In this document: in pieces, positions 1,404 through 50,308 of the stretch
Layout: each line of letters opens with the position of its first letter
How positions within the stretch are numbered: position 1 is the stretch's first letter
NCBI RefSeq assembly: GCF_018070565.1
Contig: NZ_JAGPXL010000014.1
Location: 62,001-126,000, forward strand
Origin: Streptomyces sp. B93
GTDB lineage: Bacteria; Actinomycetota; Actinomycetes; Streptomycetales; Streptomycetaceae
Direction of reading: 5' to 3'
DNA: 64,000 nt
The notes under the pieces: generated by a model
The model's database searches: none
The model's input: only the letters and a program-made list of their open reading frames with translations
What the model was told of the DNA's origin: nothing
Translations under genes and position numbers: made by a program

Positions 1404-1453
1404 TGGAACTCCCCAGGTTCAGAGTCAGGCTCAGGTTCAGGAAGGGATCGTTT

Positions 1454-3052: not shown

Positions 3053-3062
3053 GAAGGAGCTG

Positions 3063-3099
3063 ACGGGTGCCCCGGAGGACCGTACTCCGGGGCACCCGT
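3063..3099. terminator. Strong bidirectional terminator between hexosaminidase and desD
   Basis: A perfect 15-bp stem (ACGGGTGCCCCGGAG, 3063-3077, with its complement at 3085-3099) encloses a 7-nt loop. It sits between two convergent genes, 10 nt after the GH20 stop and 14 nt before the desD stop. Confidence 0.9.
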
Positions 3100-3113
3100 C
3101 CGTTCGGTGGGGC

Positions 3114-4889
3114 TCAGAACCCGGCGATCGGGTTGTGCAGGTCGCCGACCAGCTGGAGCGCGGCCGACGGGTCCGCCAGGTCCACCATCTGCTGGTTGTC
3201 GCGCAGCTGGAGCCGGTTCAGGCAGGACAGGGCGAACGTCGGGGCGAACATGTCGTACTGGGCGAACTTGTCGGCGAGTTCGGGGACCGACTGCTGGTAC
3301 TCCCGGGTGATCTCGGCGACCGTGCGCCAGAAGTCGTCCTCCGTCAGGATGCCCTCGCCGGCGAGGTTCGCCGCGAGGAAGCGGAAGAAGCAGTCGAAGA
3401 CGTCCGTGAAGACCGACAGCAGCTTCATGTCGTCCGGGACCTCTGCGCGGATGCGCTGGACCTCGGGCGGCAGCACCGCGTCCGGGTCCATGACGACGAT
3501 CTCCTCGGCGATGTCCTTGTAGATCGCCCGCTCCACGGCCCCGTCCTTCAGGGCGAGGATCACGTTCTCGCCGTGCGGCATGTAGACGAGGTCGTAGGCG
3601 TAGAAGCTGTGCAGGAGCGGGGTGTAGTAGGCGCGCAGGTAGCGGCGCAGCCACTCCACCGGGGTCAGGCCCGAGCGTTCGATCAGGGCGCCCGCGAAGG
3701 ACGCGCCCTCGTGGTCGACGTGCAGGAGGGACGCCATGGTCGCGAGGGTCTCGCCGTCCTTCAGGGACGCCACCGGGCTCTCCCGCCACAGCGCGGCCAG
3801 CATCTTGCGGTACGGCGAGTAGCGGTCGGTCGCCTTCTCGTACTCCAGGTGCCGGTAGCCGACGGCGGCCCGCTCACGGATGATCGTCAGGCCCGTGTCC
3901 TTGAGGACGGGGTCGTTCTCGATGAGCTGGGCGAGCCAGTCGTTGATGGCCGGGGTCGCCTCCATGTAGGCGGCCGACAGTCCGCGCATGAAGCCCATGT
4001 TGACGACGGACAGGGCCGTCTTGACGTAGTGCTTCTCGGGGCTGGTGGTGTTGAAGAAGGTCCGGATCGACTGCTGGGCCAGGTACTCGTCGTCGCCCTC
4101 GCCGAGGCAGACCAGGTGCCGGCGGGCGACCTCGGCGGCGAAGGTGACGGTGAGCTTGTTCCACCACTGCCAGGGGTGGACGGGGATGAGCAGGTAGTCG
4201 GCGGGGTCCAGGCCCTTCTCGCGCAGGGTGCCGTGGAAGCGGGCGACCGTCGCCTCGCCCAGCTCCTGGCGGACGAAGGACTCGTACTCGATGCCGACCC
4301 CGGCCGTGAACGCGGCGCGGGAGCGGTGGGCGGCCAGCCAGACGAGGCGGACGGGACTCGCGGTCTCGGGGGCGTACGACAGGTACTCGTGGATGCCGAA
4401 GCCGAGCCGTCCGTTGTTGGCGACGAAGCAGGGGTGGCCCTCGGTCATGCCGGTCTCGATGGCCTGGAACCCGGACGCCGCCAGCTCGGCGGCCGTGACC
4501 TGCGGTTTGGCGAGCTTGTAGCAGGTGCCGGAGAGGGTGGAGGAGATCTCCTCCAGGTACACCGGGAGGATCGCGTCGCTCAGGCCCAGGGAGGTCCTCA
4601 GCTCGATGAGGAAGTCCAGGGCGGTGAGCGGGAGTTCGGCGCCGCCCTCGCCGTGACGGGTGATCGAGTCGGCGTCCACCTGCCAGTGGTCCAGGGCGCG
4701 GCGGGTGGCGGTGAAGCGGTAGTGGGTCAGGCCGTCGTCGCTGCGGACGGTCCAGCGGCCGTCTTCGTGCTCTGGTGTGATCAGGCGCTCGTGGGCGAAC
4801 TCCGCGAGGGCCTTGCGGACCAGGAGGCGGTTGGCCCGCTCCCAGTGCTCGGGGGAGAGGTGGCTGACGGCGTCGGCGAGGTGCGTCAT
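3114..4889 (-). CDS. desD: DesD desferrioxamine synthetase (NIS synthetase, 591 aa)
   Basis: ATP-dependent NRPS-independent siderophore synthetase of the IucA/IucC family. It adenylates the carboxylate of N-hydroxy-N-succinylcadaverine, then oligomerises and cyclises three units to desferrioxamine E (or, with acetyl caps, B). The start [20 protein letters not shown] and motifs such as EGHPCFVANNGRLGFG (ATP/substrate pocket), LIPVHPWQW and TFFNTTSPEKHYVKTALSV (family signature with Thr/Arg contacts) are all present. Length is normal. ATG 4889 overlaps the desC stop by 4 nt (ATGA), so translation is coupled. It is the last gene of desABCD and ends at a shared terminator. Confidence 0.96.
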   Translation of the reverse strand: MTHLADAVSHLSPEHWERANRLLVRKALAEFAHERLITPEHEDGRWTVRSDDGLTHYRFTATRRALDHWQVDADSITRHGEGGAELPLTALDFLIELRTSLGLSDAILPVYLEEISSTLSGTCYKLAKPQVTAAELAASGFQAIETGMTEGHPCFVANNGRLGFGIHEYLSYAPETASPVRLVWLAAHRSRAAFTAGVGIEYESFVRQELGEATVARFHGTLREKGLDPADYLLIPVHPWQWWNKLTVTFAAEVARRHLVCLGEGDDEYLAQQSIRTFFNTTSPEKHYVKTALSVVNMGFMRGLSAAYMEATPAINDWLAQLIENDPVLKDTGLTIIRERAAVGYRHLEYEKATDRYSPYRKMLAALWRESPVASLKDGETLATMASLLHVDHEGASFAGALIERSGLTPVEWLRRYLRAYYTPLLHSFYAYDLVYMPHGENVILALKDGAVERAIYKDIAEEIVVMDPDAVLPPEVQRIRAEVPDDMKLLSVFTDVFDCFFRFLAANLAGEGILTEDDFWRTVAEITREYQQSVPELADKFAQYDMFAPTFALSCLNRLQLRDNQQMVDLADPSAALQLVGDLHNPIAGF

Positions 4890-35403: not shown

Positions 35404-36822
35404 ATGCGCAAGGCGCTCAGATGGCTGCTTGCGCTCACGGTGCTCATAGGCACCCTGAGCACGGCGGGAACGGCCACCGCCGTCCAGCCGGAGGCCGCGG
35501 ACATCAAGGACCGGCTCCTGGACATCCCGGGCATGAGCCTGGTCGAGGAGAAGCCGTACCCCGGCTACCGCTTCTTCGTCCTGAACTACACCCAGCCGGT
35601 CGACCACCGGCACCCGTCCAAGGGCACGTTCCAGCAGCGCATCACCGTGCTGCACAAGGACGAGTCCCGCCCGACGGTCTTCTACACCGGCGGCTACAAC
35701 GTCTCCACCACTCCCAGCCGCCGCGAGCCGACCCAGATCGTGGACGGCAACCAGGTCTCCATGGAGTACCGCTTCTTCACCCCGTCGCGCCCCGACCCGG
35801 CCGACTGGACCAAGCTGGACATCTGGCAGGCCGCCAGCGACCAGCACCGCATCTTCAAGGCGCTCAAGCCGGTCTACGACAGGAAGTGGCTGTCCACGGG
35901 CGGCTCCAAGGGCGGCATGACCGCCACGTACTACGAGCGCTTCTACCCGCGTGACATGGACGCCGTCGTCGCCTACGTGGCCCCCAACGACGTCGTCAAC
36001 AAGGAGGACTCGGCCTACGACCGCTTCTTCGCCACGGTCGGCACCAAGGAGTGCCGCGACCGCCTGAACGGCGTCCAGCGGGAGGCGCTGGTGCGCCGCG
36101 AGCCGCTGGAGCAGCGCTACGCCGCCTACGCCGCCGACAACGGCTTCACGTTCAACACCGTCGGCAGCCTCGACAAGGCGTACGAGGCCACCGTCCTCGA
36201 CTTCGTCTGGGGCTTCTGGCAGTACAGCCTGCTGTCGGACTGCGACACCATCCCGGCCGACGCGAAGAACGCCACCGACGACCAGATCTGGGAGACCGTC
36301 GACACCATCGCGGGCTTCTCCTTCTACACCGACCAGGGCCTGTCCCCGTACACGCCGTACTACTACCAGGCGGGCACCCAGCTGGGCGCGCCGACGATCC
36401 ACTTCCCGCACATCGAGAAGAAGTACGTCCGCTACGGCTACCTCCCGCCGCGCTACTTCGTGCCCCGGGACATCCCGATGCGGTTCCAGCCGTCCGCGAT
36501 GCGCGACATCGACAACTGGGTGCGGCACAACGCCACCCGGATGCTGTTCGTCTACGGCGAGAACGACCCGTGGGGCGCCGAGCCGTTCCGCCTCGGCAAG
36601 GGCGCACGGGACAGCTACGTCTTCACCGCCCCCGGCGCCAACCACGGTGCCCGGGTCGCCGGTCTGGTCGAGAACGAGCGGGCGCTCGCCACGGCCCGCA
36701 TCCTCGAGTGGGCGGGCGTGGCCCCGGCCGCCGTCCAGGCGGACCCGACGGCCGCGAAGCCGCTCGCGAAGTTCGACGCCAAGCTGGACAAGCGGGGCGC
36801 CGAGCGCACACTGAGGCCGTGA
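35404..36822 (+). CDS. Secreted S37-family tripeptidyl aminopeptidase (472 aa)
   Basis: A serine peptidase of family S37 (PS-10 type, Streptomyces), removing tripeptides from protein N-termini. Signal peptide about residues 1-27 (LRWLLALTVLIGTLSTAG). The nucleophile is S168 in STGGSKGGMTATYYER. The acid is D388 in VYGENDPWG and the His is H414 in GANHGARV, giving a complete triad in alpha/beta-hydrolase order. ATG 35404 is preceded by GGGAGG. It is extracytoplasmic and likely feeds peptide uptake during growth on protein. Confidence 0.93.
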   Translation: MRKALRWLLALTVLIGTLSTAGTATAVQPEAADIKDRLLDIPGMSLVEEKPYPGYRFFVLNYTQPVDHRHPSKGTFQQRITVLHKDESRPTVFYTGGYNVSTTPSRREPTQIVDGNQVSMEYRFFTPSRPDPADWTKLDIWQAASDQHRIFKALKPVYDRKWLSTGGSKGGMTATYYERFYPRDMDAVVAYVAPNDVVNKEDSAYDRFFATVGTKECRDRLNGVQREALVRREPLEQRYAAYAADNGFTFNTVGSLDKAYEATVLDFVWGFWQYSLLSDCDTIPADAKNATDDQIWETVDTIAGFSFYTDQGLSPYTPYYYQAGTQLGAPTIHFPHIEKKYVRYGYLPPRYFVPRDIPMRFQPSAMRDIDNWVRHNATRMLFVYGENDPWGAEPFRLGKGARDSYVFTAPGANHGARVAGLVENERALATARILEWAGVAPAAVQADPTAAKPLAKFDAKLDKRGAERTLRP

Positions 36823-36840
36823 GCTGACGGTGGGCCGCGC

Positions 36841-37446
36841 CTACAGGGGGCGGGCGCAGCCCACCGGACGCACCCCGTCGAGCCGTACGTACAGGGACGT
36901 CGAGGCCGGACACCGGTCGCGGCTGCCGACCGCCGCCGTGACCTGGTACTCCGGTCGCGGCCCGCCCTTCCCGTCACCCTCGCAGGCGGTCTCCCGGACC
37001 CGGCCGCCCCCGACGCCGTACAGACAGTCGCCGACGATGGTGCGCGGCCCGCCCCCGGCGCCCGGGTCCCCGGGATGCGGCGGCTGGAGGGAACGCATGC
37101 AGGCGTAGCCGCGCGGCACATGGCCGTCGCCGTCCTCGTCGGACGCGGGCCGCCGCTCGCTGATGTGCAGCACGAAGTCGGTTCTCGCCGGGCAGGGCGG
37201 CCCGTCGCGTACGGCGCCGTCATGCCGCGCCACCACCCGCGCCGCCGCCCGCTCACTGGCGCAGGGGACCTCGGTGAAGCCCGGTGCTCTGAAGGAACTG
37301 CACTCGTCGACGCCGAGGAAGACGCTGCCGTACCCGGAGTGGAGGACCGCGGACGGCCGCGCCCGCGGCGGGCCCCCGCCCACCTGACACGCCGTCACCG
37401 CCACGGCCACGACCGTCAGCCCCACCACACCACCGCGCACCCGCAT
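36841..37446 (-). CDS. Lipoprotein of unknown function (201 aa)
   Basis: A lipoprotein signal (GLTVVAVAVTACQ, lipidated Cys at about residue 20) is followed by a mature domain with several paired cysteines (DECSS, VPCASE, PPCPART, YACMRS, DCLYG, TACEG, DRCPAS, GCARPL), suggesting extracellular disulfides. I recognise no family. The gene is convergent with the S37 peptidase gene, stops 18 nt apart. Start ATG 37446 is the only Met before the signal segment. Confidence 0.72.
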   Translation of the reverse strand: MRVRGGVVGLTVVAVAVTACQVGGGPPRARPSAVLHSGYGSVFLGVDECSSFRAPGFTEVPCASERAAARVVARHDGAVRDGPPCPARTDFVLHISERRPASDEDGDGHVPRGYACMRSLQPPHPGDPGAGGGPRTIVGDCLYGVGGGRVRETACEGDGKGGPRPEYQVTAAVGSRDRCPASTSLYVRLDGVRPVGCARPL

Positions 37447-37542
37447 GCCATCCCCCCACGCCCAGCGTGGCCCGCTCGAACGGGCGCACGCCAGACGCGC
37501 GGAGGGCTGTGCGGCACGCGGTGCGCGCGCTGGAGCGCCTCC

Positions 37543-39411
37543 CTAGTAGGACAACCCGTGCCCGATGGGGTACAGCACCCGCGCCGGGTCGTCCGCCCGC
37601 TGCACCGGCACCGGGAGCCGCCCGCGCGGGCCCACCCGCCCCGCGATCACACGTGCCGCCGCCCGCAGTTCGACGTCCGTCCAGGAGTACGTCGCCAGGC
37701 AGGCGCGCACCGACGGGAACTGGGCGACGTCGTACGGGTTGCGGATGGCCACCGCGACCACCGGTTTCCCGGTCTCCGACAGCCGCTGCACCAGGGTGCG
37801 CTGGGCGCTGCTCGCGGTGACGTTGTAGGTGGCGACGACCACGGCGTCCACGTCCCGCGCCGCCGCCACCGCCTGCTCGACGACCGCCGCGGAGGGGCTG
37901 GTGCCGGTGGTCAACGGGGTCGCCGTGAAGCCGAGTCCGGTGAGGGCGTCCGCGAGGACCCGCATCGGCGGGCCCGTGGTGGCGGACGGGGAGGCGAGAT
38001 CGGGCCCGGCCACCAGGAGCCTGCCGTGACGGCGCGGCGACAGCGGCAGCAGCGCGCCCTCGTTGACCAGCAGGGTGGTGGTCCGCTCGGCGATGCGGTC
38101 GGCGGCCTCCAGGTGCCCCCGGGTGCCGACGGTGCGCTGGACGCCGCGCGGACTGACGTACGGCTCGTCGAACAGGCCCAGCTTGGCCTTCAGCCGCAGC
38201 ACCCGCAGGATCGACTCGTCCAGCCGCGCCTCGGTCAGCTCGCCGTCCAGCACCGCCTGCCGGACCGCGTTCCAGGCGAGGTCCAGCTCGGGGGCGTTCA
38301 GCAGCAGGTCGACGCCCGCCTTCAGGGCGAGCACGGGCACCCGGTCGTCGCCGTACTTGGTGCGTACGCCCGCCATGTCGAGGGCGTCGGTGACCACCAC
38401 GCCGTCGTAGCCGAGGCGTTCGCGCAGGATGCCGGTGAGGATGGGGCGGGACAGGGTCGCCGGGTCGCCGGAGTCGTCGAGGGCCGGGACCAGGATGTGC
38501 GCGGTCATGATCGAGTCGATGCCCGCCTCGATCGCCGCGCGGAACGGCGGCTCGTCCAGCGTCTCCCACTGCTCGCGCGTGTGCGTGATGGTCGGGAAGC
38601 CGTAGTGGCTGTCGACCTCGGTGTCCCCGTGCCCCGGGAAGTGCTTGGCGGTCGCGGCGACCCCTGACTTCTGGTACCCGGTCACCTCGGCGGCGACCAG
38701 TTCCGCCACCGCCCCGGGGTCGGCCCCGAACGACCGCACCCCGATGACGGGGTTGGCCGGATTGACGTTGACGTCGGCGACGGGGGAGTAGTCCTGCCGG
38801 ATGCCCATGGCCCGCAGCTCCCGCCCCGCGATCCGCCCCAGCGTCCGGGCGTCGGAGGCGGACCCTCCGGCGCCGATCGCCATGGCACCCGGGAAGAGCG
38901 TGGCGGGCTTGCCGACCCGGGCGACGATGCCGTGCTCCTGGTCGGTGGAGACCAGCACAGGCAGCCCGCGCGGGAGGCCGAGGGACGCCCGCTGGATGCC
39001 GTTGGAGAGGTCGGCGATCTGCCGCGGGTCACGGGTGTTGTGCGCCCAGGCGAAGTAGATGACGCCGCCGAGCCGGTACTTGGCGATCAGCTCGGCGGCC
39101 GTGCGCACCCCGAACTGCTGGAGGTTGGCGTCGATGTCGGCCCGGTCGGGGTCGGTGGCGGAGTGGCCGTAGACCCGGGACACGAAGAGCTGGCCGACCT
39201 TCTCCTCCAGTGTCATACGGGAGACGAGGGCGCGGAGCCGGTGGTCGTCGGGGGCGCCCGTGCCATCTGGGGTGTCTGAGGCGGCGGACGCGTGGGTGCC
39301 GAAGGTGAGGGCGGCGCCGACGCCCGCGGTGGCGGCGAGGACGGTGCGTCTGGAGGGGGCGGATGGGGCGGAGGGGGCGGATGCGGGGCTACCCGCGCCG
39401 GTGTCGTGCAC
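37543..39411 (-). CDS. Exported GH3 beta-N-acetylglucosaminidase, NagZ-like (622 aa)
   Basis: GH3 glycoside hydrolase that cleaves terminal GlcNAc. The NagZ-type loop [14 protein letters not shown] (K256-H269) carries the acid/base His269, and the nucleophile is D342 in VVTDALDM; these together separate NagZ-type GH3 from beta-glucosidases. A Tat-type signal (about residues 20-46, [15 protein letters not shown]) indicates export. A C-terminal GH3-C domain (about 425-622) is retained, unlike E. coli NagZ. GTG 39411 with GGAAGGAG 6 nt upstream is chosen. A long inverted repeat lies immediately upstream. Confidence 0.93.
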
Positions 39412-39442
39412 GTGCGCTCCTTCCGGAGAAGATCCACTGAAG

Positions 39443-39479
39443 GAAACTTCCGAGGTGCCACCAATATCCGGGAAGTTTC
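39443..39479. promoter_or_regulatory. Inverted repeat upstream of the GH3 gene
   Basis: GAAACTTCC (39443-39451) and GGAAGTTTC (39471-39479) are perfect 9-bp arms with 19 bp between them; the spacer contains GGTGCCACC, itself symmetric apart from its centre. It sits in the promoter region of the GH3 gene and looks like a regulator operator. It does not resemble the DasR site. Confidence 0.6.
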
Positions 39480-39510
39480 TGCCAGTCAAGGGAGTGCGCG
39501 CGGGCGGGGC

Positions 39511-40422
39511 CTACGGTCGGGCAGCGGGCGGCGGCCAGTGGGCCCGGAGCGTGCGCACCGTCTCGGCGATCGCCGGACGCCGCCCCAGCCCCGAACGCCA
39601 CAGCGCGTAAAGCCGCCGTACCGGCACCGGATCCAGCACCACCTCCACCACCCCCTCCGGCAACGGCCCCCGCCCCAGCCGCGGAATCAGACAGATGCCG
39701 AGCCCGGCCGCGACCAGGGCGACCAGTGTGGGATTCTCATCGGCCTGATGGACGATCTCCGGCTCATGACCCGCCGTCCGCAACGTCCGCACCAGCCACT
39801 CATGACACACCCGCCCCGGCGGCTGGCACACCCACCGCTCCCCGCCCAGCTCCTCCCGCCGCACCGACTCCCGCCCGGCGAACCGGTGCCCGCGCGGCAC
39901 CAGCAGCGTGCACTCGTCCTCCCCGATCGCCGCCTGCTCCACCCCCGGCGGCAACGTCAGCGAGGCGATGTCCCAGTCGTGCGCGACGGCCAGATCGACG
40001 GCGCCCTTGGCGACCATGCCGACCGACAGGTGCGGGTCCACCTCACTGAGCCGCGCGTCCAGCGCGGGATGCCGTACGGCGAGATCCGCCAGCACCCCGG
40101 GCAGCAGCCCGCGCGCCGCCGACGCGAACGCCACCACGGTCAGCCGCCCCGCGGGCGTGCCGCGCCGCTCCTCCAGCTCCGTCTCCGCCCGCTCCACGAT
40201 CGCCATCAACTCCGCGGCCGTGTCGACCAGCTGACGCGCCTCTGCGGTCAGCCGTACCCCGCGCCCCTCACGCTCCAGCAGTACGGTCCTGGTCTCCCGC
40301 TCCAGCTTGGCGATCTGCTGGGACACCGCCGACGAGGTGTACCCGAGCGCGGTGGCGGCGGCACCGACGGTGCCGTGCACGGACACGGCGTGCAGGGCAC
40401 GCAACCGCTGAAGATCAAGCAC
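39511..40422 (-). CDS. LysR-family regulator (303 aa)
   Basis: The N-terminal winged HTH reads HAVSVHGTVGAAATALGYTS then SAVSQQIAKLERE (about residues 10-45), typical of LysR. The C-terminal effector-binding domain contains LPPGVEQAAIGEDECTLLVP and VALVAAGLGICLIPRLG. GTG 40422 is chosen because GGAGGACCC immediately precedes it; an upstream ATG would add 7 residues. It is divergent from an EamA transporter gene, a common LysR-target arrangement, so the transporter is the probable target. The 88-bp spacer has T-N11-A-type symmetry candidates but no clear single box. Confidence 0.88.
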   Translation of the reverse strand: MLDLQRLRALHAVSVHGTVGAAATALGYTSSAVSQQIAKLERETRTVLLEREGRGVRLTAEARQLVDTAAELMAIVERAETELEERRGTPAGRLTVVAFASAARGLLPGVLADLAVRHPALDARLSEVDPHLSVGMVAKGAVDLAVAHDWDIASLTLPPGVEQAAIGEDECTLLVPRGHRFAGRESVRREELGGERWVCQPPGRVCHEWLVRTLRTAGHEPEIVHQADENPTLVALVAAGLGICLIPRLGRGPLPEGVVEVVLDPVPVRRLYALWRSGLGRRPAIAETVRTLRAHWPPPAARP

Positions 40423-40510
40423 GGGTCCTCCATCCATCAGCAACGCTTAATCCAACCATGCAGCAATGATCGCTGGTGCTTCACGGTCGGCGCGGGTGAT
40501 CCTGCCGGAC

Positions 40511-41401
40511 ATGCGCCCCGCACACGTCCTCCTCGCCGTCCTGGTCGCCGCCGTATGGGGCGTCAACTTCACCGTCATAGAGATCGGCCTCGACCACTTC
40601 CCGCCGCTGCTCTTCTCCGCCCTGCGCTTCCTCGCGGCGGCGCTCCCGGCGGTGTTCCTCGTGGGCCGCCCGAAGGTCGCGTGGCGCTGGATCCTGGCCG
40701 TCGGCCTGGTACTGGGCGTGGCCAAGTTCGGCCTGCTCTTCGTCGGCATGGACGCGGGCATGCCCGCGGGCCTGTCCTCGCTGGTCCTCCAGATCCAGGC
40801 GGTCTTCACGGCGCTGATCGCCTACGCCGCCCTGTCCGAACGCCCGACCCGCCTCGCCACCACGGGCATGCTCATCGCCCTGTCCGGCATAGCCGTAGCC
40901 GCCCTGGACGAGGGCACCACCGGCCCCCTCGGCGCCTTCGCCCTCGTGATCCTGGCCGCGGCCTGCTGGGGCGCCTCCAACGTCCTCACCCGCAGGGCGT
41001 CCCCACCCGACGCCCTCAACTTCATGGTCTGGGTCAGCGTGGTCCCCGTCCTCCCCCTGCTGGCGCTGTCGTTGCTGCTGGAGGGCGCGCAGCGCGACCT
41101 GGACGCCCTGCGCGCCCTGGACTGGCAGGGCGCGGGCACCATCGCCTACGTCGCCTGGATCACGACGGTCTTCGGCTTCGGCGCCTGGGGCTGGCTCCTG
41201 CGCCGCCACCCGGCGTCCACGGTCGCCCCCTTCTCCCTCCTCGTACCGGTCTTCGGCATGACCTCGGCGGCACTGTTCCTGGGCGAGCCGGCGACGGGAC
41301 AGCGCTGGTGCGCGGCGGCCCTGCTGGTGGGCGGAGTGGCCCTGACGACCTGGAGGACGCCGGGGCGGCGGCGGGCGGTTGAGGTGCGCGCGGCTACGTA
41401 G
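40511..41401 (+). CDS. EamA/DMT-superfamily transporter (296 aa)
   Basis: Ten membrane helices are visible with the two EamA repeats: residues about 1-130 (MRPAHVLLAVLVAAVWGVNF, LQIQAVFTALIAY) and 145-280 (GAFALVILAAACWGASNVLT, SLLVPVFGMTSAALFLGEP). The family exports amino acids, nucleosides or metabolites such as O-acetylserine (YdeD-like). ATG 40511 gives a normal first helix; an upstream ATG at 40466 would add 15 residues. Divergent LysR regulator suggests induction by the exported compound. Confidence 0.88.
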   Translation: MRPAHVLLAVLVAAVWGVNFTVIEIGLDHFPPLLFSALRFLAAALPAVFLVGRPKVAWRWILAVGLVLGVAKFGLLFVGMDAGMPAGLSSLVLQIQAVFTALIAYAALSERPTRLATTGMLIALSGIAVAALDEGTTGPLGAFALVILAAACWGASNVLTRRASPPDALNFMVWVSVVPVLPLLALSLLLEGAQRDLDALRALDWQGAGTIAYVAWITTVFGFGAWGWLLRRHPASTVAPFSLLVPVFGMTSAALFLGEPATGQRWCAAALLVGGVALTTWRTPGRRRAVEVRAAT

Positions 41402-41502
41402 TTTGCCGGACGACGGGGGAGGACCGCCCGTGGGAAACTGCCGCGCCGCCCGTGAGGGCAGGGCCAGTTGGGCTACGACGTGTTACAGGGAGCGGCCGAC
41501 GC

Positions 41503-42279
41503 ATGGAACGACGTGGGGGGATGGGCCTGTGGGCAGGGCTGGCGGCGACGGCGCTGCTGCTCGCCGGGTGCGGAGGAGGGGGAGGGGACGACGACGCGGG
41601 GGCACCGGCCGGCTCGCCGCCGGCGTCAGAACGCGAACGCACATCGGCACCCCCGGAGACCACCCCGTCGTCCGACTCCCCGACCAGCGACCCCTCGCCC
41701 ACCGGGGCTGCCCCCGCCTCCGACATAGACCTGGACGAGGTCATCCTCAAGCCGGGCGACCTGGCAGAGTTCCAGATCACGGAGAGCCCGGGCGGCGACC
41801 GTGACATCCCACCCACCAAGGCCAGCCCCGCCACGTGCCAGCCGGTGGAGAACCTCCGCCTGGACGCCTACACCGCGACCCCCTCCGCCACGGCCCGCCG
41901 CTTCGCGTTGGCGACGACCGGCGACTACCGGGGCACCGGCACGACGATCACCCTGACCGCCTTCACCGCCACGGACGCCGAGAAGACCATGTCGGACCTG
42001 CGCTCGGCGGTGACGAAGTGCGCGAACGGCTACGAGGGAGGCGCACTCACCTTCAACGAGGTCCGCAAACTCACCCCCGTCCCCGTAGGCGACGAGGCGA
42101 TCTCCTTCCACCTGTCGGGCCGAGCCACCCCGACCTCGTACACCCTGGTCCGCCAGGGCTCCATCCTCGTCCGCCTCAGCTCGGCCGTGGGCACGGGCGG
42201 CGAGGCGGAGGTGCCCCAGCCGGTGGTGGTCCAACAGGTGATGAAGATCCAGGCAGCCGCAGCAAGAACGGCGTCATAA
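41503..42279 (+). CDS. Lipoprotein of unknown function (258 aa)
   Basis: The lipobox LLAGC (in GLAATALLLAGCG) follows MERRGGMGLW, with a low-complexity Ser/Pro/Thr/Asp linker (about residues 30-75). The mature domain contains ILKPGDLAEFQITESPGGDR and ATARRFALATTGDYRGTGTT, a fold often seen in Streptomyces lipoproteins of unknown function. ATG 41503 has GGGAG 9 nt upstream. No co-directional neighbour follows. Confidence 0.78.
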   Translation: MERRGGMGLWAGLAATALLLAGCGGGGGDDDAGAPAGSPPASERERTSAPPETTPSSDSPTSDPSPTGAAPASDIDLDEVILKPGDLAEFQITESPGGDRDIPPTKASPATCQPVENLRLDAYTATPSATARRFALATTGDYRGTGTTITLTAFTATDAEKTMSDLRSAVTKCANGYEGGALTFNEVRKLTPVPVGDEAISFHLSGRATPTSYTLVRQGSILVRLSSAVGTGGEAEVPQPVVVQQVMKIQAAAARTAS

Positions 42280-42344
42280 CCACGCCCCCGAGCAAGTGAC
42301 CGTTGGGGCCGCCCGCTTCTTTGCCAGGGTCGTGCTTCCGCGCC

Positions 42345-42430
42345 CCGGCCTCATGGGCGCTCCGCTACGCTCCGCGTCGCCTTCGGCGATCGGCCTGCGG
42401 CCGCCCCTTGACCCCGGCCCGCTCCAGCCC
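42345..42430. repeat. GC-rich hairpin element typical of Streptomyces intergenic regions
   Basis: Inside a 550-bp stretch without genes (42280-42828) is an 85-bp element with two adjacent hairpins: TCGCC-TTC-GGCGA (42377-42389) and CGGCC-TGC-GGCCG (42391-42403). I recall similar GCGCTCCGCT-type extragenic elements in other Streptomyces genomes. It may end the lipoprotein transcript. No protein is supported. Confidence 0.5.
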
Positions 42431-42501
42431 GGGTGAGAAGCGAGCGGGCGGCCCGGAAAGACGGGTGGCCAGGGTCTGTTGTCCCTTCAGGTGGGCTTCG
42501 T

Positions 42502-42744
42502 GGTGGGTCGGGGTTGTGGGGGTGCGTCAGCCTCTCGCCTGCACGCCGGGCGGGTTCAGCGGGTTGCGGCCCGGTGGCGGGTGCGCGTCAGGTGGTCGGG
42601 GGTACGCCGGGATGGGCTTGGCGGCTATCGGCCGGTGGGGTGCGCATCAGGCAGGCGGCGCGCCGGGACGGGCTCAGCGGCTGACGGTTGGTGGGGGATG
42701 CGCGTCCGGTGGATGGGGCATGCCGGATCGGCTCAGCGAGCCTC
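42502..42744. repeat. Four degenerate tandem repeats of about 56-66 bp
   Basis: Units start near 42502, 42568, 42630 and 42686. Each begins with a GGnnGGTGGGGG-like segment, then TGCGCGTCAGG, GCCGGGACGGGCTCAGC and a short variable tail. Identity between units is partial but ordered. Any open frames across it encode repetitive Arg/Gly/Ala-rich sequence with no conserved domain, so I treat it as noncoding repeat DNA. Confidence 0.65.
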
Positions 42745-42801
42745 GGAGGGCCGTGGGCAGGTGTGCGGGTGGGCAAGAGGCACGGGCCGGGGCCGGACCC
42801 T

Positions 42802-43362
42802 TGAACCGCTCCGGGATCGGTGGAGGCTCTATGCGTTGACTCCAGCCGCCGGTTGGGGCTGGTGTTGAGCGTAGTGGTTGGTCTCGTGCTCGTAGGGCGG
42901 GATGTCGCCGATCGCTGTGTGGAGGCGCTGGTTGTTGAACCAGTCGACCCATTCCGCGGTGGCGAGTTCAACGTCGGCCAGGCCGTGCCAGGGCCTGCGC
43001 GGCTTGATCAACTCCGTCTTGTAGAGGCCGATCTGGGATTCCATGAGCGCGTTGTCCAAGGCGTCGCCGACGGTGCCGATCGAGGCGTCGATGCCGGCCT
43101 CGATCAGGTGCGCGGTGAACGCGAAAGACGTGTACTGACTGCCCGCGTCCGAATGATGAACCAGCCCCGGGCCAGCGGGAGTTCCGGCTCGGTCGCGACG
43201 CCACAAGGCCATGTCGAGCGCGTCGAGGACGAGCTTGGCCCGCTTGCTGGTGGCGACGGACCAGCCCACGATCGCCCGGGAGAACACGTCCACGACGAAC
43301 GCGACGTAGACGATCCCCGACCAGGTGGCGACATAGGTGAAGTCAGCCACCCACCGCTCGTT
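42802..43362 (-). mobile_element. IS3-family insertion-sequence fragment (right end and transposase DDE half)
   Basis: The segment carries the C-terminal integrase-core half of an IS3 OrfB transposase and, downstream of its stop, TGAACCGCTCCGGGATCGGT starting at 42802, which resembles the right terminal inverted repeat of actinobacterial IS3 elements. The left end, orfA and the N-terminal half of orfB are missing; the fragment joins directly to a regulator gene at about 43362. It is therefore a one-ended remnant that cannot move by itself. Confidence 0.75.
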
Positions 43363-43965
43363 CTGGCGCACTGCCGCCAGGCAAGGACTGGACGCCCGCT
43401 GTGCCGCCCAGTCCATTCGATCCAGAGCGACGGATGAGAGGTCGTAGTAGCCGAGCTTCACACTGATGTCGTGTGCTGTCCGGTAGGCGGAGGCGAGGGC
43501 CTTCCACAGCTCGGTCGAGGGAGCCGACCACGACATGTGCGTCAGCTCCGCGATCAAGCTCGGCAACTGCCGGGCAGCCTTCCGTAGGTGTGTGGCCCGC
43601 ACGTCTTCACAGAGACGGTCAGCCGCCGAGATCAGCTGGTCTGCTGGTCGCGCCGTGAGGTCCGGATTGCGGCCGAGGTCGTAGAGATCGAGGGATTCGC
43701 GGATAGGCCGGACCAGTTCGGCGAGGCGGTCCCGCTGTAGTTCCGTCACGTACGGCTGTCCGGTCAGGGCCGTGACATCGATGCTGAGCACCTTGGCGCA
43801 GGCCGCGACGAAGTCCGCTGTCGCTGGGCGGGCACCGCACTCCACTTGGTTGAGCAGACTGTACGAGTAGGGGAGCAGGTCGGCCATCTGGCGCTGTGTG
43901 AGCCTGGCCAGTCTGCGCTGTTCCTTGATGCGCGCGCCAGTGTGGTTGTCGTCCAGCGTGGGCAT
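42829..43965 (-). CDS. XRE regulator fused in frame to an IS3 transposase DDE domain (378 aa chimera)
   Basis: Residues 1-201 are an XRE-type HTH regulator of the Streptomyces XRE/flavoprotein pairs: GARIKEQRRLARLTQRQMAD is the start of the HTH, followed by a helical domain to RASSPCLAAVRQ. At residue 202 the sequence changes without a stop to an IS3 OrfB core: D208 (WVADFTYV), D273 (HHSDAGSQY) and E309 (NALMESQIG), with D273-E309 having the D(35)E spacing. The catalytic triad is intact but OrfB lacks its N-terminal DNA-binding region. ATG 43965 has GGAG upstream. Its divergent partner flavoprotein gene remains intact. Confidence 0.85.
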   Translation of the reverse strand: MPTLDDNHTGARIKEQRRLARLTQRQMADLLPYSYSLLNQVECGARPATADFVAACAKVLSIDVTALTGQPYVTELQRDRLAELVRPIRESLDLYDLGRNPDLTARPADQLISAADRLCEDVRATHLRKAARQLPSLIAELTHMSWSAPSTELWKALASAYRTAHDISVKLGYYDLSSVALDRMDWAAQRASSPCLAAVRQNERWVADFTYVATWSGIVYVAFVVDVFSRAIVGWSVATSKRAKLVLDALDMALWRRDRAGTPAGPGLVHHSDAGSQYTSFAFTAHLIEAGIDASIGTVGDALDNALMESQIGLYKTELIKPRRPWHGLADVELATAEWVDWFNNQRLHTAIGDIPPYEHETNHYAQHQPQPAAGVNA

Positions 43966-44055
43966 ACTGGTCTCCGTTCCAAGCACCCACGTGGCACCGT
44001 ACCCGCCTCTGACTCTCCTGAGTCCGCGAGCGGTTGCATGTGGTCGGATGTGCGT

Positions 44056-44604
44056 ATGAAGCCAACCGACCGTGTCCTCTACCTGTTCGGCTCCGCGGCC
44101 CCGCCCGTTTTCGATATCGCCCGCGCGGTCGCGGCGGCGCAGGCCCACGGCTTCGACGTGTGCCTCGGGCTGACGCCGACCGCCGCGCGGTGGCTGGCGC
44201 CCCAGCTCGTCGAGTTGGAGCGGCAGACGGGGCACCCGGTGCGCAGCGAGTACAAGATGCCCGGTCAGCCGGACGTGTGGCCGAAGGCGGACGTGATCGC
44301 GGTCGCGCCCGCCACTTTCAACACGGTGAACTCATGGGCGCTCGGGCTTACTCATCAGTTCGTCGTGGGTGTCGTCGCCGAGGGCGTCGGCAAGGGCATC
44401 CCCATGGTGACGATGCCGTGTGTCAACGCCGCCTATGTGCGGCACCCACAGTTCGAACGCAGCATCGGCGCGCTGCGTGCGATGGGTGTGCGGGTGCTGT
44501 ACGGCGAGGGCGGCTTCGTGCCCAACGAGCCTGGGCAGGGGAAACCGAGTGAGTACCCCTGGGATCTGGTGCTGAGCGCCGTGGACGAGGTCTGCGTCAG
44601 GTGA
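44056..44604 (+). CDS. Flavoprotein of the HFCD family (182 aa)
   Basis: MKPTDRVLYLFGSAAPPVFD opens a Rossmann-like flavodoxin-related fold (HFCD: homo-oligomeric flavin-containing Cys decarboxylases). ADVIAVAPATFNTVNSWALG is the conserved FMN-binding PASANT-like motif (here PATFNT), and MVTMPCVNAAYVRHP is the active-site segment. Reactions of this Streptomyces subgroup are not established. It is divergent from the XRE chimera gene; the two form a pair repeated often in Streptomyces. No obvious Shine-Dalgarno lies before ATG 44056. Confidence 0.85.
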   Translation: MKPTDRVLYLFGSAAPPVFDIARAVAAAQAHGFDVCLGLTPTAARWLAPQLVELERQTGHPVRSEYKMPGQPDVWPKADVIAVAPATFNTVNSWALGLTHQFVVGVVAEGVGKGIPMVTMPCVNAAYVRHPQFERSIGALRAMGVRVLYGEGGFVPNEPGQGKPSEYPWDLVLSAVDEVCVR

Positions 44605-44618
44605 GCGACCCCGCCCCC

Positions 44619-45428
44619 TCACGCCGAGTCGTTCAGCAGCCGTGCCAGGTGGTCCCGCCCCCCGTCCAGCAGTTCCGGCAGGGGTGCCGCGTCCGGGTGC
44701 CAGCGCTTTTCGTACTCCCAGCACAGCCAGCCGTCCCAGCCGTGGCGGGAGAGGATCTCGACGCACTCGGCGAGGGGGAGGACGCCGGTGCCCAGGGGGA
44801 GCGGGGTGGTGTCGTCGGCGGAGGCGATGTCCTTGACCTGGAGGTAGCCGAGGTAGGGGGCGAGGGCGGCGTAGGTCTCGGAGGGCTGTTCGCCGCCGAG
44901 CCAGGTGTGCATCACGTCCCAGAGGGCGCCGACCTGGCGGTGGCCGACCAGGCCCAGGACGCGGATGGTGTCGGCGGCGGTGCGGTGGGAGTCGTGGGTC
45001 TCCAGGAGGATGCGCACCCCGGCGTCGGTGGCGTGTTCCGCCGCCGTCCCCAGTCGGCGCGCGGCGGTCGCGTCGGCCTCGTCGGGGGCCTGCCCGTGCA
45101 CGTCGGCGCCGGGGAAGACACGGACGTACGGGGCGCCCAGGTCGCGCGCGAGGTCCAGCAGGGCGTACAGCTCCGTGAGTACGGGTTCGTCGTCGCCCGG
45201 CGCGGCCACGCGCGCGTACCCGGCGAGGCTGAGCACCTCGATCCCGGCTGCCTTGAACTGGGCTGCCGCGTCGGCCCGTTCGTCGGGGCTGAGGCCGGGG
45301 TGCACCGGTTCCTCGGCGTGGGCGCGCAGTTCGACGCCGTGATAGCCGTGGTCGGCGGCGAGTCGGATGACGTCGGGGAGGGGGAGACCGGGGACGCCGA
45401 GAGTGGAGAACGCCAGTTTCATGCTCAT
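44619..45428 (-). CDS. TIM-barrel sugar phosphate isomerase/epimerase-like protein (269 aa)
   Basis: AP-endonuclease-2 superfamily TIM barrel. MSMKLAFSTLGVPGLPLPDV opens it, followed by GYHGVELRAHAEEP, the metal Glu region ILLETHDSHRTA, VGALWDVMHTWLG and YLQVKDIASADD, the standard metal-ligand order of xylose-isomerase-like enzymes. WDGWLCWEYEKRWHPDAA closes the barrel. It likely isomerises or epimerises a free or phosphorylated sugar. The gene is convergent with the flavoprotein gene, 14 nt apart. An alternative start at 45422 would remove two residues. Confidence 0.85.
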   Translation of the reverse strand: MSMKLAFSTLGVPGLPLPDVIRLAADHGYHGVELRAHAEEPVHPGLSPDERADAAAQFKAAGIEVLSLAGYARVAAPGDDEPVLTELYALLDLARDLGAPYVRVFPGADVHGQAPDEADATAARRLGTAAEHATDAGVRILLETHDSHRTAADTIRVLGLVGHRQVGALWDVMHTWLGGEQPSETYAALAPYLGYLQVKDIASADDTTPLPLGTGVLPLAECVEILSRHGWDGWLCWEYEKRWHPDAAPLPELLDGGRDHLARLLNDSA

Positions 45429-45460
45429 CGACCCTACTCGGCGCCGCGCCGCCCGGCGCG

Positions 45461-46396
45461 TCACTCCGGCGTCGAGTGCAGTGCCAGCCGCCAGTCCTGG
45501 CCGATCAGGTCGTGGCCGAAGGAGCGGTGCGGCTTCTCGGCGACCAGGACGAAGCCGTGCCGTTGGTAGAGGCGGCGGGCGGCGCTGAGCACGTCGTTGG
45601 TCCACAGGGTCAGGTCGCGGTAGCCGACGCCGCGGGCGAAGTCGACGACGGCCGTGACGAGCCGGTCGCCGATGCCGAGGCCGCGGGCGTCGGGTTCGAC
45701 GAGGAGGAGGCGCAGCCGTGCGGTGCCGGGCGAGTCGTCCCGTACGCACATCACGCAGCCCACGGGGCGGCCGTCCAGCTCGGCGATCCAGGCCCGTTCC
45801 AGGTGCGGGTCGTGGTCCTCGGCGAAGTCGGCGACGATGCGGGCGACGAGGCCCTCGTAGTCGGTGTTCCAGCCGTACTCGGCGGCGTAGAGGGCGGCGT
45901 TGCGCTGCACGATCCAGCCGAGGTCACCGGGGCCGGGTTCGCGCAGCAGGACGTCCTCGGGGTGGGGCGTGCGGTCGCCGTCGCCGAGGATGGTCCGCAC
46001 GGTGCGCATCGCCTCGGCGAGGCGGGGGCGGTCGGCGGGCGCCACCCCTGCGAGCAGCGCGCCGACCGTTTCCCGGGCCCTTTCGTCGAGCCGTGCGGCG
46101 GTCTCGCGTCCCGCGCCGGTGAGGCTGATACGGCGTCGGCGCGGGTCCTTCTCCGACGGCCCCCGTTCGATCAGCCCGTCCTGTTCGAAGCGGTTGAGGA
46201 TACGGCTCAGGTATCCGGCGTCCAGATGCAGCTGAACCCGCAGGTCGGCGGCGTCCGTGTGCGCGGAGTGCGCCAGTTCGTACAGCACGCGCGACTCGGT
46301 GAGCGTGTACGGGGCGTACAGGTGGCGGCCGTAGTCGAGGGCGCCGATGACGTTGGTGTAGAAGCGGTTGAAGGAGCGGATGTCCTGGACGGTCAC
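45461..46396 (-). CDS. MarR regulator fused to GNAT acetyltransferase (311 aa)
   Basis: The N-terminal MarR winged helix (about residues 1-140) has LTESRVLYELAHSAHTDAAD, then LHLDAGYLSRILNRFEQDGL and DPRRRRISLT as wing. The C-terminal GNAT domain (about 155-311) has the acetyl-CoA loop VEPDARGLGIGDRLVTAVVD and the LYQRHGFVLV segment. This domain order is a known fusion in actinobacteria; the acetyltransferase may act on a small molecule sensed by the MarR part. GTG 46396 has GGAGG 10 nt upstream. Confidence 0.9.
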   Translation of the reverse strand: MTVQDIRSFNRFYTNVIGALDYGRHLYAPYTLTESRVLYELAHSAHTDAADLRVQLHLDAGYLSRILNRFEQDGLIERGPSEKDPRRRRISLTGAGRETAARLDERARETVGALLAGVAPADRPRLAEAMRTVRTILGDGDRTPHPEDVLLREPGPGDLGWIVQRNAALYAAEYGWNTDYEGLVARIVADFAEDHDPHLERAWIAELDGRPVGCVMCVRDDSPGTARLRLLLVEPDARGLGIGDRLVTAVVDFARGVGYRDLTLWTNDVLSAARRLYQRHGFVLVAEKPHRSFGHDLIGQDWRLALHSTPE

Positions 46397-46464
46397 GGTC
46401 GATCGGCCTCCAGCCCCGGATGCGTGCCCCCGACATCTGACCTCCGGGCCCTTGACCCGGATAA

Positions 46465-46477
46465 CTGACTCAGTCAG
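46465..46477. promoter_or_regulatory. Palindrome upstream of marR-GNAT
   Basis: CTGACT-C-AGTCAG is a 13-bp palindrome, 68 bp before the GTG start. MarR proteins often autoregulate through such sites; this is the best candidate operator here. Confidence 0.5.
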
Positions 46478-46642
46478 AGGTTCCGTCGACTCGAAGCCTA
46501 GGCCGCCCCCCGGCTCCCGTCCACGCCGCGCACACGCACCGCCGCCCCCGCGGCCCCCCGGAGGTCCGAGCACCGCCGCCCCGAACCGTCCCGGAGGCCC
46601 CCCGCACCCTTACCCCGGCGCACCCCGGAGCCCCCCGCACCG

Positions 46643-47689
46643 TCACCCCCGAGGCACCCCAGAAGACCCCCGCACCATCAACTCCCCCCGCACCATGGCG
46701 ATCCCCCCGGGCGGCGCCTCCTCCCGCCCCATGGCGATCCGCCCCGCCCGTGCCCCCGCCGCGGCCAGCGGCAGCCGGACCGTCGTCAGGGACGGCACCG
46801 CGTCGATGCTGAACGGCAGGTCGTCGAACCCGGCCACGGACACGTCGTCCGGGATGCGCCGCCCGGACTCCCGCAGCGCCGCGCAGGCGCCCAGTGCGAC
46901 GGAGTCGTTGGCGGCGACGACGGCGGTGAGGGTGGGGTCGCGGCGCAGCAGCTCCAGCGTGGCCTCGTAGCCGGAGCGGCGGTCGTAGCGGCCGTGCACG
47001 GTCCAGCGGGGGTCCTCGTCGATCCCGGCGGCGGCGAGCGCCTCGCGGTGGCCCTCCAGGCGGTGCCGGGTGGTGGTGCGTTCCTCGGGCCCGGCGATGT
47101 AGCCGAGCCGTCGGTGGCCGAGGCCGATGAGATGTTCGGTCAGCTGTCGTCCGCCGCCGCGGTTGTCGAAGGTGAGGGCGATGGCCCCGGTGTCGGGCGC
47201 GGGCGGCCGTCCGCACAGCACCACGCGGGTCCCTGCGTCGCCCAGCTTGCGCAGCTTGGACGCCACCGCCGCCGCGTGCGCCGCGTCCTCCATGGCCCCG
47301 CCGGTCAGCACGACCGCCGCGGCCCGCTGCCGTTGGAGCAGGGTCAGGTAGGTCAGCTCACGCTCGGGCGAGCCGCCGGTGTTGCAGACGACGGCGAGTC
47401 GCTCGCCGCCCGCGCGTCCGCCGGGGCCGCCGATCTCGGACTGGATGGCTCCGGCCATGATCCCGAAGAACGGGTCGGCGATGTCGTTGACCAGGATGCC
47501 GACCAGGTCGGAGGTGGCGGCGGCGAGGGCGCTCGCGGGGCCGTTGAGGACGTAGTCGAGTTCGTCGACCGCCTTGAGCACCCGCTCCCTGGTGGAGGCG
47601 GCTACGGGGTAGTTGCCGTTCAGCACGCGCGACACCGTCGCGGGCGAGACCTGGGCGCGGGCCGCCACGTCCGCCAGGGTCACCGTCAT
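46643..47689 (-). CDS. LacI-family regulator (348 aa)
   Basis: HTH MTVTLADVAARAQVSPATVS then RVLNGNYPVAASTRERV (residues 1-37) with hinge helix LNGPASALAA, followed by a periplasmic-binding-type ligand domain (VGILVNDIADPFFGIMAGAI, TAVVAANDSVALGA, VSVAGFDDLPFS). It is divergent from the three-gene carbohydrate operon starting at 48009, with a LacI-type operator between them, so it very probably represses that operon and responds to its sugar substrate. The C-terminus ends GSSGVPRG, preceded by G-rich repeats in the DNA. Confidence 0.92.
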   Translation of the reverse strand: MTVTLADVAARAQVSPATVSRVLNGNYPVAASTRERVLKAVDELDYVLNGPASALAAATSDLVGILVNDIADPFFGIMAGAIQSEIGGPGGRAGGERLAVVCNTGGSPERELTYLTLLQRQRAAAVVLTGGAMEDAAHAAAVASKLRKLGDAGTRVVLCGRPPAPDTGAIALTFDNRGGGRQLTEHLIGLGHRRLGYIAGPEERTTTRHRLEGHREALAAAGIDEDPRWTVHGRYDRRSGYEATLELLRRDPTLTAVVAANDSVALGACAALRESGRRIPDDVSVAGFDDLPFSIDAVPSLTTVRLPLAAAGARAGRIAMGREEAPPGGIAMVRGELMVRGSSGVPRG

Positions 47690-47862
47690 GTCCTCGTCCT
47701 CCGGTCGCGCATCTCGTCGTACGCCGTTGTACAGGCCCTGGGCCCCGGCCGTGGGCGTACGCCCACCTACACATCCGAACCCTCGGTCGCGGTTCCGGAG
47801 CAGACCTTAAGGCCAAGGACACCGTTGTTCGACCCTTCGAACGACTCGCCTTCGCGGTGGTC

Positions 47863-47891
47863 TTGTCCAACCGCAGTTCAGAGGCTAGCTT
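47863..47891 (+). promoter_or_regulatory. Candidate promoter of the carbohydrate operon
   Basis: TTGTCC (47863-47868), a 17-nt spacer and TAGCTT (47886-47891) form a sigma-HrdB-like promoter. The LacI-type site lies just downstream, where a bound repressor would block transcription. Confidence 0.5.
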
Positions 47892-47902
47892 CTGGAGTGA
47901 TA

Positions 47903-47931
47903 GAAAGCGCTTGCTGCATACGCTTGCTGCA
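47903..47931. promoter_or_regulatory. LacI-type operator with a directly repeated half
   Basis: GAAAGCGCTTGC (47903-47914) matches the GAAAGCGCTTTC class of LacI/GalR operators. The segment CGCTTGCTGCA occurs at 47908-47918 and again at 47921-47931, 13 bp apart. It sits between the divergent lacI and operon promoters. Confidence 0.75.
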
Positions 47932-48008
47932 CAGCTCACCACCGCGCACCGGCCCCCCGGTGACGGCCGGGCGTACGCGGCGCGCGGACCGCGTACGAAG
48001 GGACTGAC

Positions 48009-49160
48009 GTGACACGCAAGACGGTGCGTATCGCCATGAACGGCGTGACCGGGCGCATGGGCTACCGCCAGCACCTGGTCCGCTCCATCCTCGCCCTGCG
48101 CGAACAGGGCGGCCTCGACCTCGGCGACGGCACCGTGCTGTGGCCGGAACCGGTCCTCGTCGGCCGTCGTGAGCACGCGCTGAAGGCGCTTGCCGAACGC
48201 CACGGTCTCGACCACTTCTCCACCGACCTCGACGCGGTCCTCGCCGACCCCACCGTCGACATCTACTTCGACGCCCAGGTCACCTCCGCCCGCGAGGAGG
48301 CCATCAAGAAGGCGATCGCCGCGGGCAAGCACATCTACACCGAGAAGCCCACCGCCACCGGCCTGCAAGGCGCCCTGGAGCTGGCCCGTCTCGCGAACGA
48401 GAAGGGCGTCAGACACGGCGTCGTCCAGGACAAGCTCTTCCTCCCCGGCCTGCTCAAGCTGAAGCGGCTCATCGACGGCGGCTTCTTCGGCCGCATCCTG
48501 TCCGTGCGCGGCGAGTTCGGCTACTGGGTCTTCGAGGGCGACTGGCAGACGGCCCAGCGCCCCTCCTGGAACTACCGCGCCGAGGACGGCGGCGGCATCG
48601 TCGTCGACATGTTCCCGCACTGGGAGTACGTCCTGCACGAGCTGTTCGGCCGGGTGAGGTCCGTCCAGGCCATCGCCACCACCCACATCCCGCAGCGCTG
48701 GGACGAGAACGGCAAGCCCTACGACGCCACCGCCGACGACGCCGCCTACGGCATCTTCGAACTCGACGGCGGCGCCATCGCCCAGATCAACTCCTCCTGG
48801 GCCGTGCGCGTCAACCGCGACGAACTCGTGGAGTTCCAGGTCGACGGCACCGAGGGCTCCGCCGTCGCGGGCCTGCGCAACTGCCGCGTCCAGCACCGCA
48901 GCGCCACCCCCAAGCCGGTCTGGAACCCCGACGTCCCCGCCACCGAGGCGTTCCGTGACCAGTGGCAGGAGATCCCGGACAACGCCGACTTCGACAACGG
49001 CTTCAAGGCCCAGTGGGAGCTGTTCCTCAAGCACGTCCACACCGGCGCCCCCTACCACTGGGACCTGCTGGCCGGCGCCCGCGGCGTCCAGCTCGCCGAG
49101 CTGGGCCTGAGGTCCTCGGCCGAGGGCCGCCGCATCGACGTACCGGAGATCGCGCTGTGA
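48009..49160 (+). CDS. Gfo/Idh/MocA-family oxidoreductase (383 aa)
   Basis: NAD(P)-dependent dehydrogenase for a sugar or cyclitol. VRIAMNGVTGRMGYRQHLVR is an atypical Rossmann N-terminus (GxTGxMGY rather than GxGxxG). YFDAQVTSAREEAIKKAIAA and GKHIYTEKPTATGLQGALEL follow; EKP is the family signature with the catalytic Lys. The C-terminal domain contains WNYRAEDGGGIVVDMFPHWE. GTG 48009 follows the divergent promoter region. It overlaps the next gene by 4 nt (GTGA). Confidence 0.9.
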   Translation: MTRKTVRIAMNGVTGRMGYRQHLVRSILALREQGGLDLGDGTVLWPEPVLVGRREHALKALAERHGLDHFSTDLDAVLADPTVDIYFDAQVTSAREEAIKKAIAAGKHIYTEKPTATGLQGALELARLANEKGVRHGVVQDKLFLPGLLKLKRLIDGGFFGRILSVRGEFGYWVFEGDWQTAQRPSWNYRAEDGGGIVVDMFPHWEYVLHELFGRVRSVQAIATTHIPQRWDENGKPYDATADDAAYGIFELDGGAIAQINSSWAVRVNRDELVEFQVDGTEGSAVAGLRNCRVQHRSATPKPVWNPDVPATEAFRDQWQEIPDNADFDNGFKAQWELFLKHVHTGAPYHWDLLAGARGVQLAELGLRSSAEGRRIDVPEIAL

Positions 49161-50308
49161 CCATCCGCCTCCCGGACCCGCAGGGCGTACTGCGGACCTA
49201 CGAGCCCCGCACCGACCCGCTCAGCCTCACCGCAGAAGGCGCTTTCTCCTCGCGTACGGTCTTCTCCGCCGCGCACGTCGTCGCCGACCCCCGCGCCGAC
49301 GTGTCCCCCGACTCACCCGCCGCCGTCGACTGGGACGCCACCCTCGCCTTCCGCCGCCACCTGTGGTCCCACGGGCTCGGTGTCGCCGAGGCCATGGACA
49401 CCGCCCAGCGCGGCATGGGCCTGGACTGGGCGGGCGCCGCCGAGCTGATCCGCCGCAGCGCCGCCGAGGCCAGGGCCGTCGGCGGCCGGATCGCCTGCGG
49501 CGTCGGCACCGACCAGCTCGCCGCCGGTACGACGGCCGAGGTCCGCGCGGCCTACGAGGAGCAGCTCGCCGTCGTCGAGGAGGCGGGCGCCCAGGCCATC
49601 GTCATGGCCTCCCGTGCCCTGACCGCGGCGGCCCGGGGCCCCGAGGACTACCTGGAGGTCTACGGCCACCTGCTGCGCCAGGCCGCCGAACCGGTGATCC
49701 TGCACTGGCTCGGCCCCATGTTCGACCCGGCCCTCGAGGGCTACTGGGGCTCCAGCGACCTGGACGTGGCCACCGGCACCTTCCTCGACGTCATCGCCGC
49801 CCACCCCGACAAGGTCGACGGCATCAAGGTCTCCCTGCTGGACGCCCAGCGCGAGATCGACCTGCGCCGCCGCCTGCCGAAGGGCGTGCGCTGCTACACC
49901 GGCGACGACTTCAACTACCCCGAGCTGATCGCGGGCGACGAGCAGGGCTTCAGTCACGCCCTGCTCGGCATCTTCGACCCGCTCGGACCGCTCGCGGCGG
50001 AGGCGGTGCGCGTCCTGGACACCGGGGACGTCGCGGGCTTCCGTGCCCTGCTCGACCCGACGGTGGAACTGTCCCGCCACCTCTTCCAGGCCCCCACCCG
50101 CTTCTACAAGACCGGCGTGGTCCTCCTGGCCTGGCTCTCCGGCCACCAGTCCCACTTCACGATGGTCGGCGGCCTCCAGTCGGCCCGCTCCCTGCCCCAC
50201 CTGGCCCGCGCCTACGAACTCGCCGACGGCCTCGGCCTGTTCCCCGACCCCAAGCTCGCCGAGGAACGGATGAAGACCCTGCTCGCGCTGTACGGAGTCG
50301 ACCAGTGA
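49157..50308 (+). CDS. DUF993 dihydrodipicolinate-synthase-like aldolase (383 aa)
   Basis: DUF993 protein related to class I (DHDPS-like) aldolases, a TIM-barrel fold. VIMASRALTAAARGPEDYLE and the likely Schiff-base Lys in DGIKVSLLDAQREIDLRRRL are visible, followed by VRCYTGDDFNYPELIAGDEQ. The substrate is unknown. It is in the middle of an operon with an oxidoreductase and an isomerase, overlapping both by 4 nt. A retro-aldol or dehydratase step on an oxidised sugar is the inference. Confidence 0.85.
   Translation: MTIRLPDPQGVLRTYEPRTDPLSLTAEGAFSSRTVFSAAHVVADPRADVSPDSPAAVDWDATLAFRRHLWSHGLGVAEAMDTAQRGMGLDWAGAAELIRRSAAEARAVGGRIACGVGTDQLAAGTTAEVRAAYEEQLAVVEEAGAQAIVMASRALTAAARGPEDYLEVYGHLLRQAAEPVILHWLGPMFDPALEGYWGSSDLDVATGTFLDVIAAHPDKVDGIKVSLLDAQREIDLRRRLPKGVRCYTGDDFNYPELIAGDEQGFSHALLGIFDPLGPLAAEAVRVLDTGDVAGFRALLDPTVELSRHLFQAPTRFYKTGVVLLAWLSGHQSHFTMVGGLQSARSLPHLARAYELADGLGLFPDPKLAEERMKTLLALYGVDQ

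Follow-up and report, generated by a model that had tools for sequence, protein, structure and literature searches.

A 378-codon frame in the window, by which we mean the whole stretch of 64,000 nucleotides of Streptomyces sp. B93 that was analysed, fuses the N-terminal half of an XRE regulator to the catalytic end of an IS3-family transposase. We consider it very probable that this chimera is an accident in which an insertion sequence truncated the regulator, breaking both the regulator and the IS and leaving a chimeric frame behind. The two halves, the exact join between them and the parts that each has lost are clear from comparison with other loci, and the chimera had no second occurrence in the genomes searched. 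The features of the locus are given in Table 1.

Table 1. Features of the chimeric locus, in positions of the window.
Feature	Position	Strand	Basis or remark
Chimeric ORF, 378 aa	42829..43965	minus	ATG at 43965, TAG at 42829
XRE regulator N-terminal half, residues 1-201, HTH_31	43363..43965	minus	Pfam and orthologue comparison
XRE/IS3 join	43362..43363	minus	Base-by-base alignment; parents share at most 1 bp (G)
IS3 OrfB C-terminal 177 residues, DDE core (chimera 202-378)	42832..43362	minus	Pfam, NCBIfam
IS3-family fragment, 562 bp of 1321-bp element	42802..43363	minus	98.9% identical to L039
Right terminal inverted repeat of IS (TGAACCGCTCCGGGATCGGTGGAGGCTC)	42802..42829		Match to complete IS end
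Dispersed intergenic repeat abutted by IS right end	42294..42801	plus	Own-genome and genus matches
Intergenic region, chimera/flavoprotein gene	43966..44055		Alignable with intact loci
Divergent flavoprotein gene, 182 aa	44056..44604	plus	PF02441; 83% identical to that of L010

An earlier note on this DNA had described an XRE/IS3 chimera with an unbroken frame and a D208-D273-E309 triad at D(35)E spacing, and both descriptions held. The frame runs from 43965 to 42829 on the minus strand without an internal stop. Its residues 10-63 match Pfam HTH_31 (E 2.7e-8; 34.4 bits against a cut-off of 27), and an integrase core (rve, rve_3 and rve_2) spans residues 200-362, with rve at 200-301 (E 4.2e-22) and rve_3 at 291-357 (E 1.1e-14). 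The NCBIfam model transpos_IS3 matches residues 196-360 with 178.9 bits (cut-off 160), taking in profile positions 210-368 of 369 only. D208, D273 and E309 are present with 64 and 35 residues in between. By these scores the homologies of both halves lie far beyond chance. There is also a longer frame with a GTG start at 44235, but the start methionine of the orthologues corresponds to residue 1 of the chimera.

The earlier note had put the join at about 43362, and base-by-base alignment placed it between 43363 and 43362, directly after codon 201 of the chimera: eight XRE loci cease to match there and six IS loci begin. BLAST agreed, the homology of XRE loci ending between 43354 and 43403 and that of IS loci beginning between 43353 and 43376. 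At the join the XRE locus L010 reads CGCCAG/TACATG, the IS reads AGGCCG/AACGAG and the window reads CGCCAG/AACGAG. In a protein search of 199 genus genomes, the own genome included, the XRE-side matches listed reached residue 232 at most and the IS-side matches listed began at residue 181 at the earliest; the gene itself aside, none of the matches listed covered both halves.

Intact XRE orthologues are 393-396 residues long (13 of 13 read through; 17 aligned) and continue after residue 201 with YMRALVYFREGEY. The homology of the chimera to them stops at residue 201, and the C-terminal helical array, which runs to about residue 394, is absent from it, as the earlier note had supposed in proposing the loss of a helical C-terminus. 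The AlphaFold model of the closest orthologue, L010 (394 aa; mean pLDDT 85.3, pTM 0.72), consists of an HTH domain and, C-terminal to it, a series of helices. Residue 201 falls within one of these (194-210); ten others come after it, most of the last one being below pLDDT 50. On this model the chimera would retain its DNA-binding part and roughly half the helices, with the TPR-like array severed in the middle of a helix. A Foldseek search of the intact orthologue against solved structures gave weak matches only, TPR proteins among them and none at E <= 0.001. The HTH-TPR regulators PlcR, PrgX and ComR were in that list with a TM-score by query of 0.34 or less in the rows listed, and the predicted likeness to them is weak and one of architecture only.

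On the regulator side, the locus of L010 is the closest known counterpart. Its regulator has the same start as the chimera and 86% identity over residues 1-207 as matched, and the two loci share an alignable intergenic region and the same divergent PF02441 flavoprotein gene; they differ in that the chimera is without residues 202-394, which are most of the TPR-like array. That the regulator is the partner of the flavoprotein gene, as the earlier note had it, was borne out by the HTH_31 domain and by the divergent PF02441 gene, whose place beside the XRE gene is conserved in relatives. At the window locus the intergenic region and the flavoprotein gene look intact. A search of the own genome found no close paralogue that might stand in for the regulator, the second matches being 34% over residues 3-81 for the regulator and 27% for the flavoprotein.

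For the IS half, the complete element of S. guryensis (L039, 9259-10579, 1321 bp) served as reference. It starts with TGAACCGCTCCGGGTCTGATGGAGGCTC, and its other end read inwards is TGAACCGCTCCGGGATCGGTGGAGGCTC. Its OrfA has HTH_Tnp_1, while the protein of the OrfB frame combines HTH_21 with the integrase core. The window shares with it the last 177 OrfB residues and the right inverted repeat, at 98.9% nucleotide identity over 562 bp, and within the IS half there are 6 differences in 531 bp, 2 of them altering a residue. Unlike L039, the window fragment has no left end, no OrfA and no HTH_21, the first 759-760 bp of the element being gone, and of the two inverted repeats only the right one is kept. 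The earlier note had likewise reasoned that the DNA-binding N-terminus of the IS protein was lost. Such a fragment should not be able to move by itself, and the IS half of the chimera should be unable to find IS ends.

The surroundings of the fragment bear on how it was formed. A one-step insertion of the IS inside the XRE gene was rejected because beyond the right inverted repeat lies the dispersed repeat and not XRE sequence. This flank implies an IS position downstream of the regulator and, as it reads, not within the regulator gene unless a second event came after. Besides the window copy, 21 stretches of the own genome match the repeat, some of them short or parts of one copy (the count leaves out its own place and one unrelated row). 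Several are arranged in inverted pairs separated by about 0.6-1 kb, several lie at the ends of contigs, and some match, many of them weak, was present in 26 of 61 genus genomes including the own. The window copy adjoins the IS end and has no inverted partner on its contig.

These observations lead to the following course of events. The locus would have started as a divergent XRE/flavoprotein pair upstream of a recently arrived IS3-family element, itself inserted in the same orientation in a repeat on the downstream side of the regulator gene. Then a single illegitimate event, a deletion or rearrangement with at most 1 bp of homology, would have put codon 201 of the regulator next to an OrfB codon that lies 58% of the way along the IS. 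This event would have removed the regulator from residue 202 to its end, whatever lay in between and the initial 759-760 bp of the IS. By chance this join would have fallen in frame, and reading would continue to the OrfB stop. We infer a single event. In the earlier note an IS insertion plus a deletion had been offered as the origin of the chimera, and this part of its reading still stands as the simplest; of the other part, that the chimera is kept or used, we found no sign.

A larger rearrangement, an inversion or a translocation, might instead have brought the XRE half beside an IS fragment that was already truncated. The flanks of the XRE/flavoprotein pair are not common to the loci compared, and within 36000-50000 of the window but outside 42790-44700 only the locus L088 matched (68%, at 38006-39098), in a comparison with flanks of 1.5 to 10 kb, as far as the contigs reached. 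On these flanks a deletion and a larger rearrangement look alike. The pair also occurs on plasmids, which fits such a rearrangement. However, this course needs more than one event and the searches of the genome found no trace of the expected other product, and we regard it as very unlikely. Among the best 20 of 1802 plasmid records, a flavoprotein was annotated under the match in 19 and a regulator also in 17, all of them from Streptomyces or Kitasatospora. Perhaps the pair is mobile cargo.

The own genome is a draft of 7.99 Mb in 134 contigs, several of which have a copy of the neighbouring repeat at an end, as might be expected if an assembler had made the join at a multi-copy IS. However, the join lies near the middle of a 198-kb contig, about 560 bp from the repeat, and the IS piece is single-copy, with no second copy in the own genome. 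The earlier note had proposed to look for the missing IS half elsewhere; a search of the own genome did not find the 5' part, a single match of 31 bp coming up when 40 of 190 first-look candidates were scored. For the XRE C-terminus, too, no near counterpart was found, the best match (39%) covering part of the query. An IS piece in single copy, missing halves that were not found elsewhere in the genome and a join in mid-contig all speak against a misassembly at a multi-copy IS, which we hold to be very improbable.

With the accidental truncation as the preferred reading, we asked how unusual an in-frame join of this kind is. By chance alone one join in three falls in frame. As a control we took 20 loci with the same IS, which were picked for partial copies and are not a random sample. 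Fourteen of the 20 have an OrfB-side piece without a 5' end, and upstream of 15 such pieces the frame was open for 1 to 517 codons, the count being uninformative for one locus (L045) whose piece begins in the OrfA part. An in-frame join to a known protein was identified only in the control locus L135 (G013, 1292-3148), where the tail of the same IS follows an IS30-family transposase in one 619-codon frame; the IS30 part scores 213.6 bits and the IS3 tail 78.5 bits, which is below the whole-protein cut-off of the model, as expected for a tail. In both loci a different protein runs in frame into the tail of this IS, but the partner in L135 is a transposase within the IS and not a host regulator. 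The open chimeric frame of the window has therefore at least one parallel, and the movement of insertion sequences in high-GC genomes would be expected to produce such frames. Six loci (L135, L137, L139, L140, L141 and L143) have this IS3 element broken off or interrupted at one and the same place, its base 984-989; in L135 the interruption is the IS30-family transposase. Five of the six have the tail piece and L143 the head piece only, and the IS30 element may insert there by preference.

Among the genomes searched the chimera was confined to one, with no conservation across lineages. A scan allowing up to 3 mismatches found the junction sequence in none of the 391 other genus genomes (1 of 392, the own). 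Of the loci compared, 56 had a match at E <= 1e-15 to the XRE half and 56 to the DDE half, two of each being the own place, and at the other XRE loci the DDE half was found at none of 54, a count in which some places are entered twice and flank sizes vary; the own place in the window alone has both halves. The chimera has no other copy to be compared with, and the few differences of the IS half from the intact IS suggest a recent event, too recent for selection to show.

Constraint on the XRE half was followed at 93 positions that are otherwise invariant, using alignment columns 1-201 only, as an alignment of whole orthologues sets the DDE part against the TPR-like part. The XRE half is changed at 2 of these positions. 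The same count for the 17 intact orthologues gave 2 changes in three, 9 in one and 0 or 1 in 13; the rows L052, L057, L062, L066, L071 and L076 of this alignment end at a fixed length and may lack the last residue or two. Pairwise dN/dS of the XRE half against eight relatives was 0.06-0.16. By these measures the XRE half is without clear decay. This, like the unbroken frame and the intact look of the intergenic region and the flavoprotein gene, fits a recent accident as well as use.

The same evidence bears on a functional fusion, in which the HTH domain would guide the chimera to the operator and the DDE domain would dimerise or block transcription there, the protein acting as a repressor or as a dominant negative. 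The HTH domain, the intergenic region and a DDE core with its triad are all present and in frame. Against this, the earlier idea of a retained chimera is not supported, given its presence in one genome only, an IS half that is 98.9% identical to the complete IS and has left no time for selection to show, the cut in the middle of a helix of the TPR-like array, and the in-frame chimera that the same IS forms elsewhere with an unrelated IS30 transposase. Also, in IS911, a relative that has been studied experimentally, the HTH and multimerisation parts of OrfAB lie within residues 1-149, outside the catalytic domain, and the authors propose that this domain masks DNA binding in the full protein (PMC2909936). 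We give a functional fusion little credence. Hardly any likelihood attaches to a newborn fusion regulator that is made from the promoter of the regulator, folds, has gained a C-terminal module in the DDE domain and alters the control of the flavoprotein gene. Nothing that we found supports domestication, for which the open frame and the intact triad are the only grounds.

If the chimera is an accidental truncation, the regulator would have no activity or, at most, bind DNA weakly or constitutively, since the break in its TPR-like array falls within a helix. The DDE domain would be inert for want of OrfA, the HTH_21 domain and the left IS end. Control of the flavoprotein gene would then probably be lost, and no new activity gained.

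Among the papers listed by searches of an open-access library, judged by titles and the starts of abstracts, none was on the XRE/flavoprotein pair and none on a bacterial transposase-regulator fusion, and in PMC13118837 the places that mention the terms looked up do not concern the pair. The XRE-DUF397 pairs treated in some of the listed papers are a different pair. The locus is a clean and recent case of insertion sequences making chimeric open frames in bacteria, and it shows why a frame without stops and with its catalytic triad intact is no evidence of domestication. If the protein were made and active, it would give a rare opening for the study of a host-transposase fusion right after its formation.
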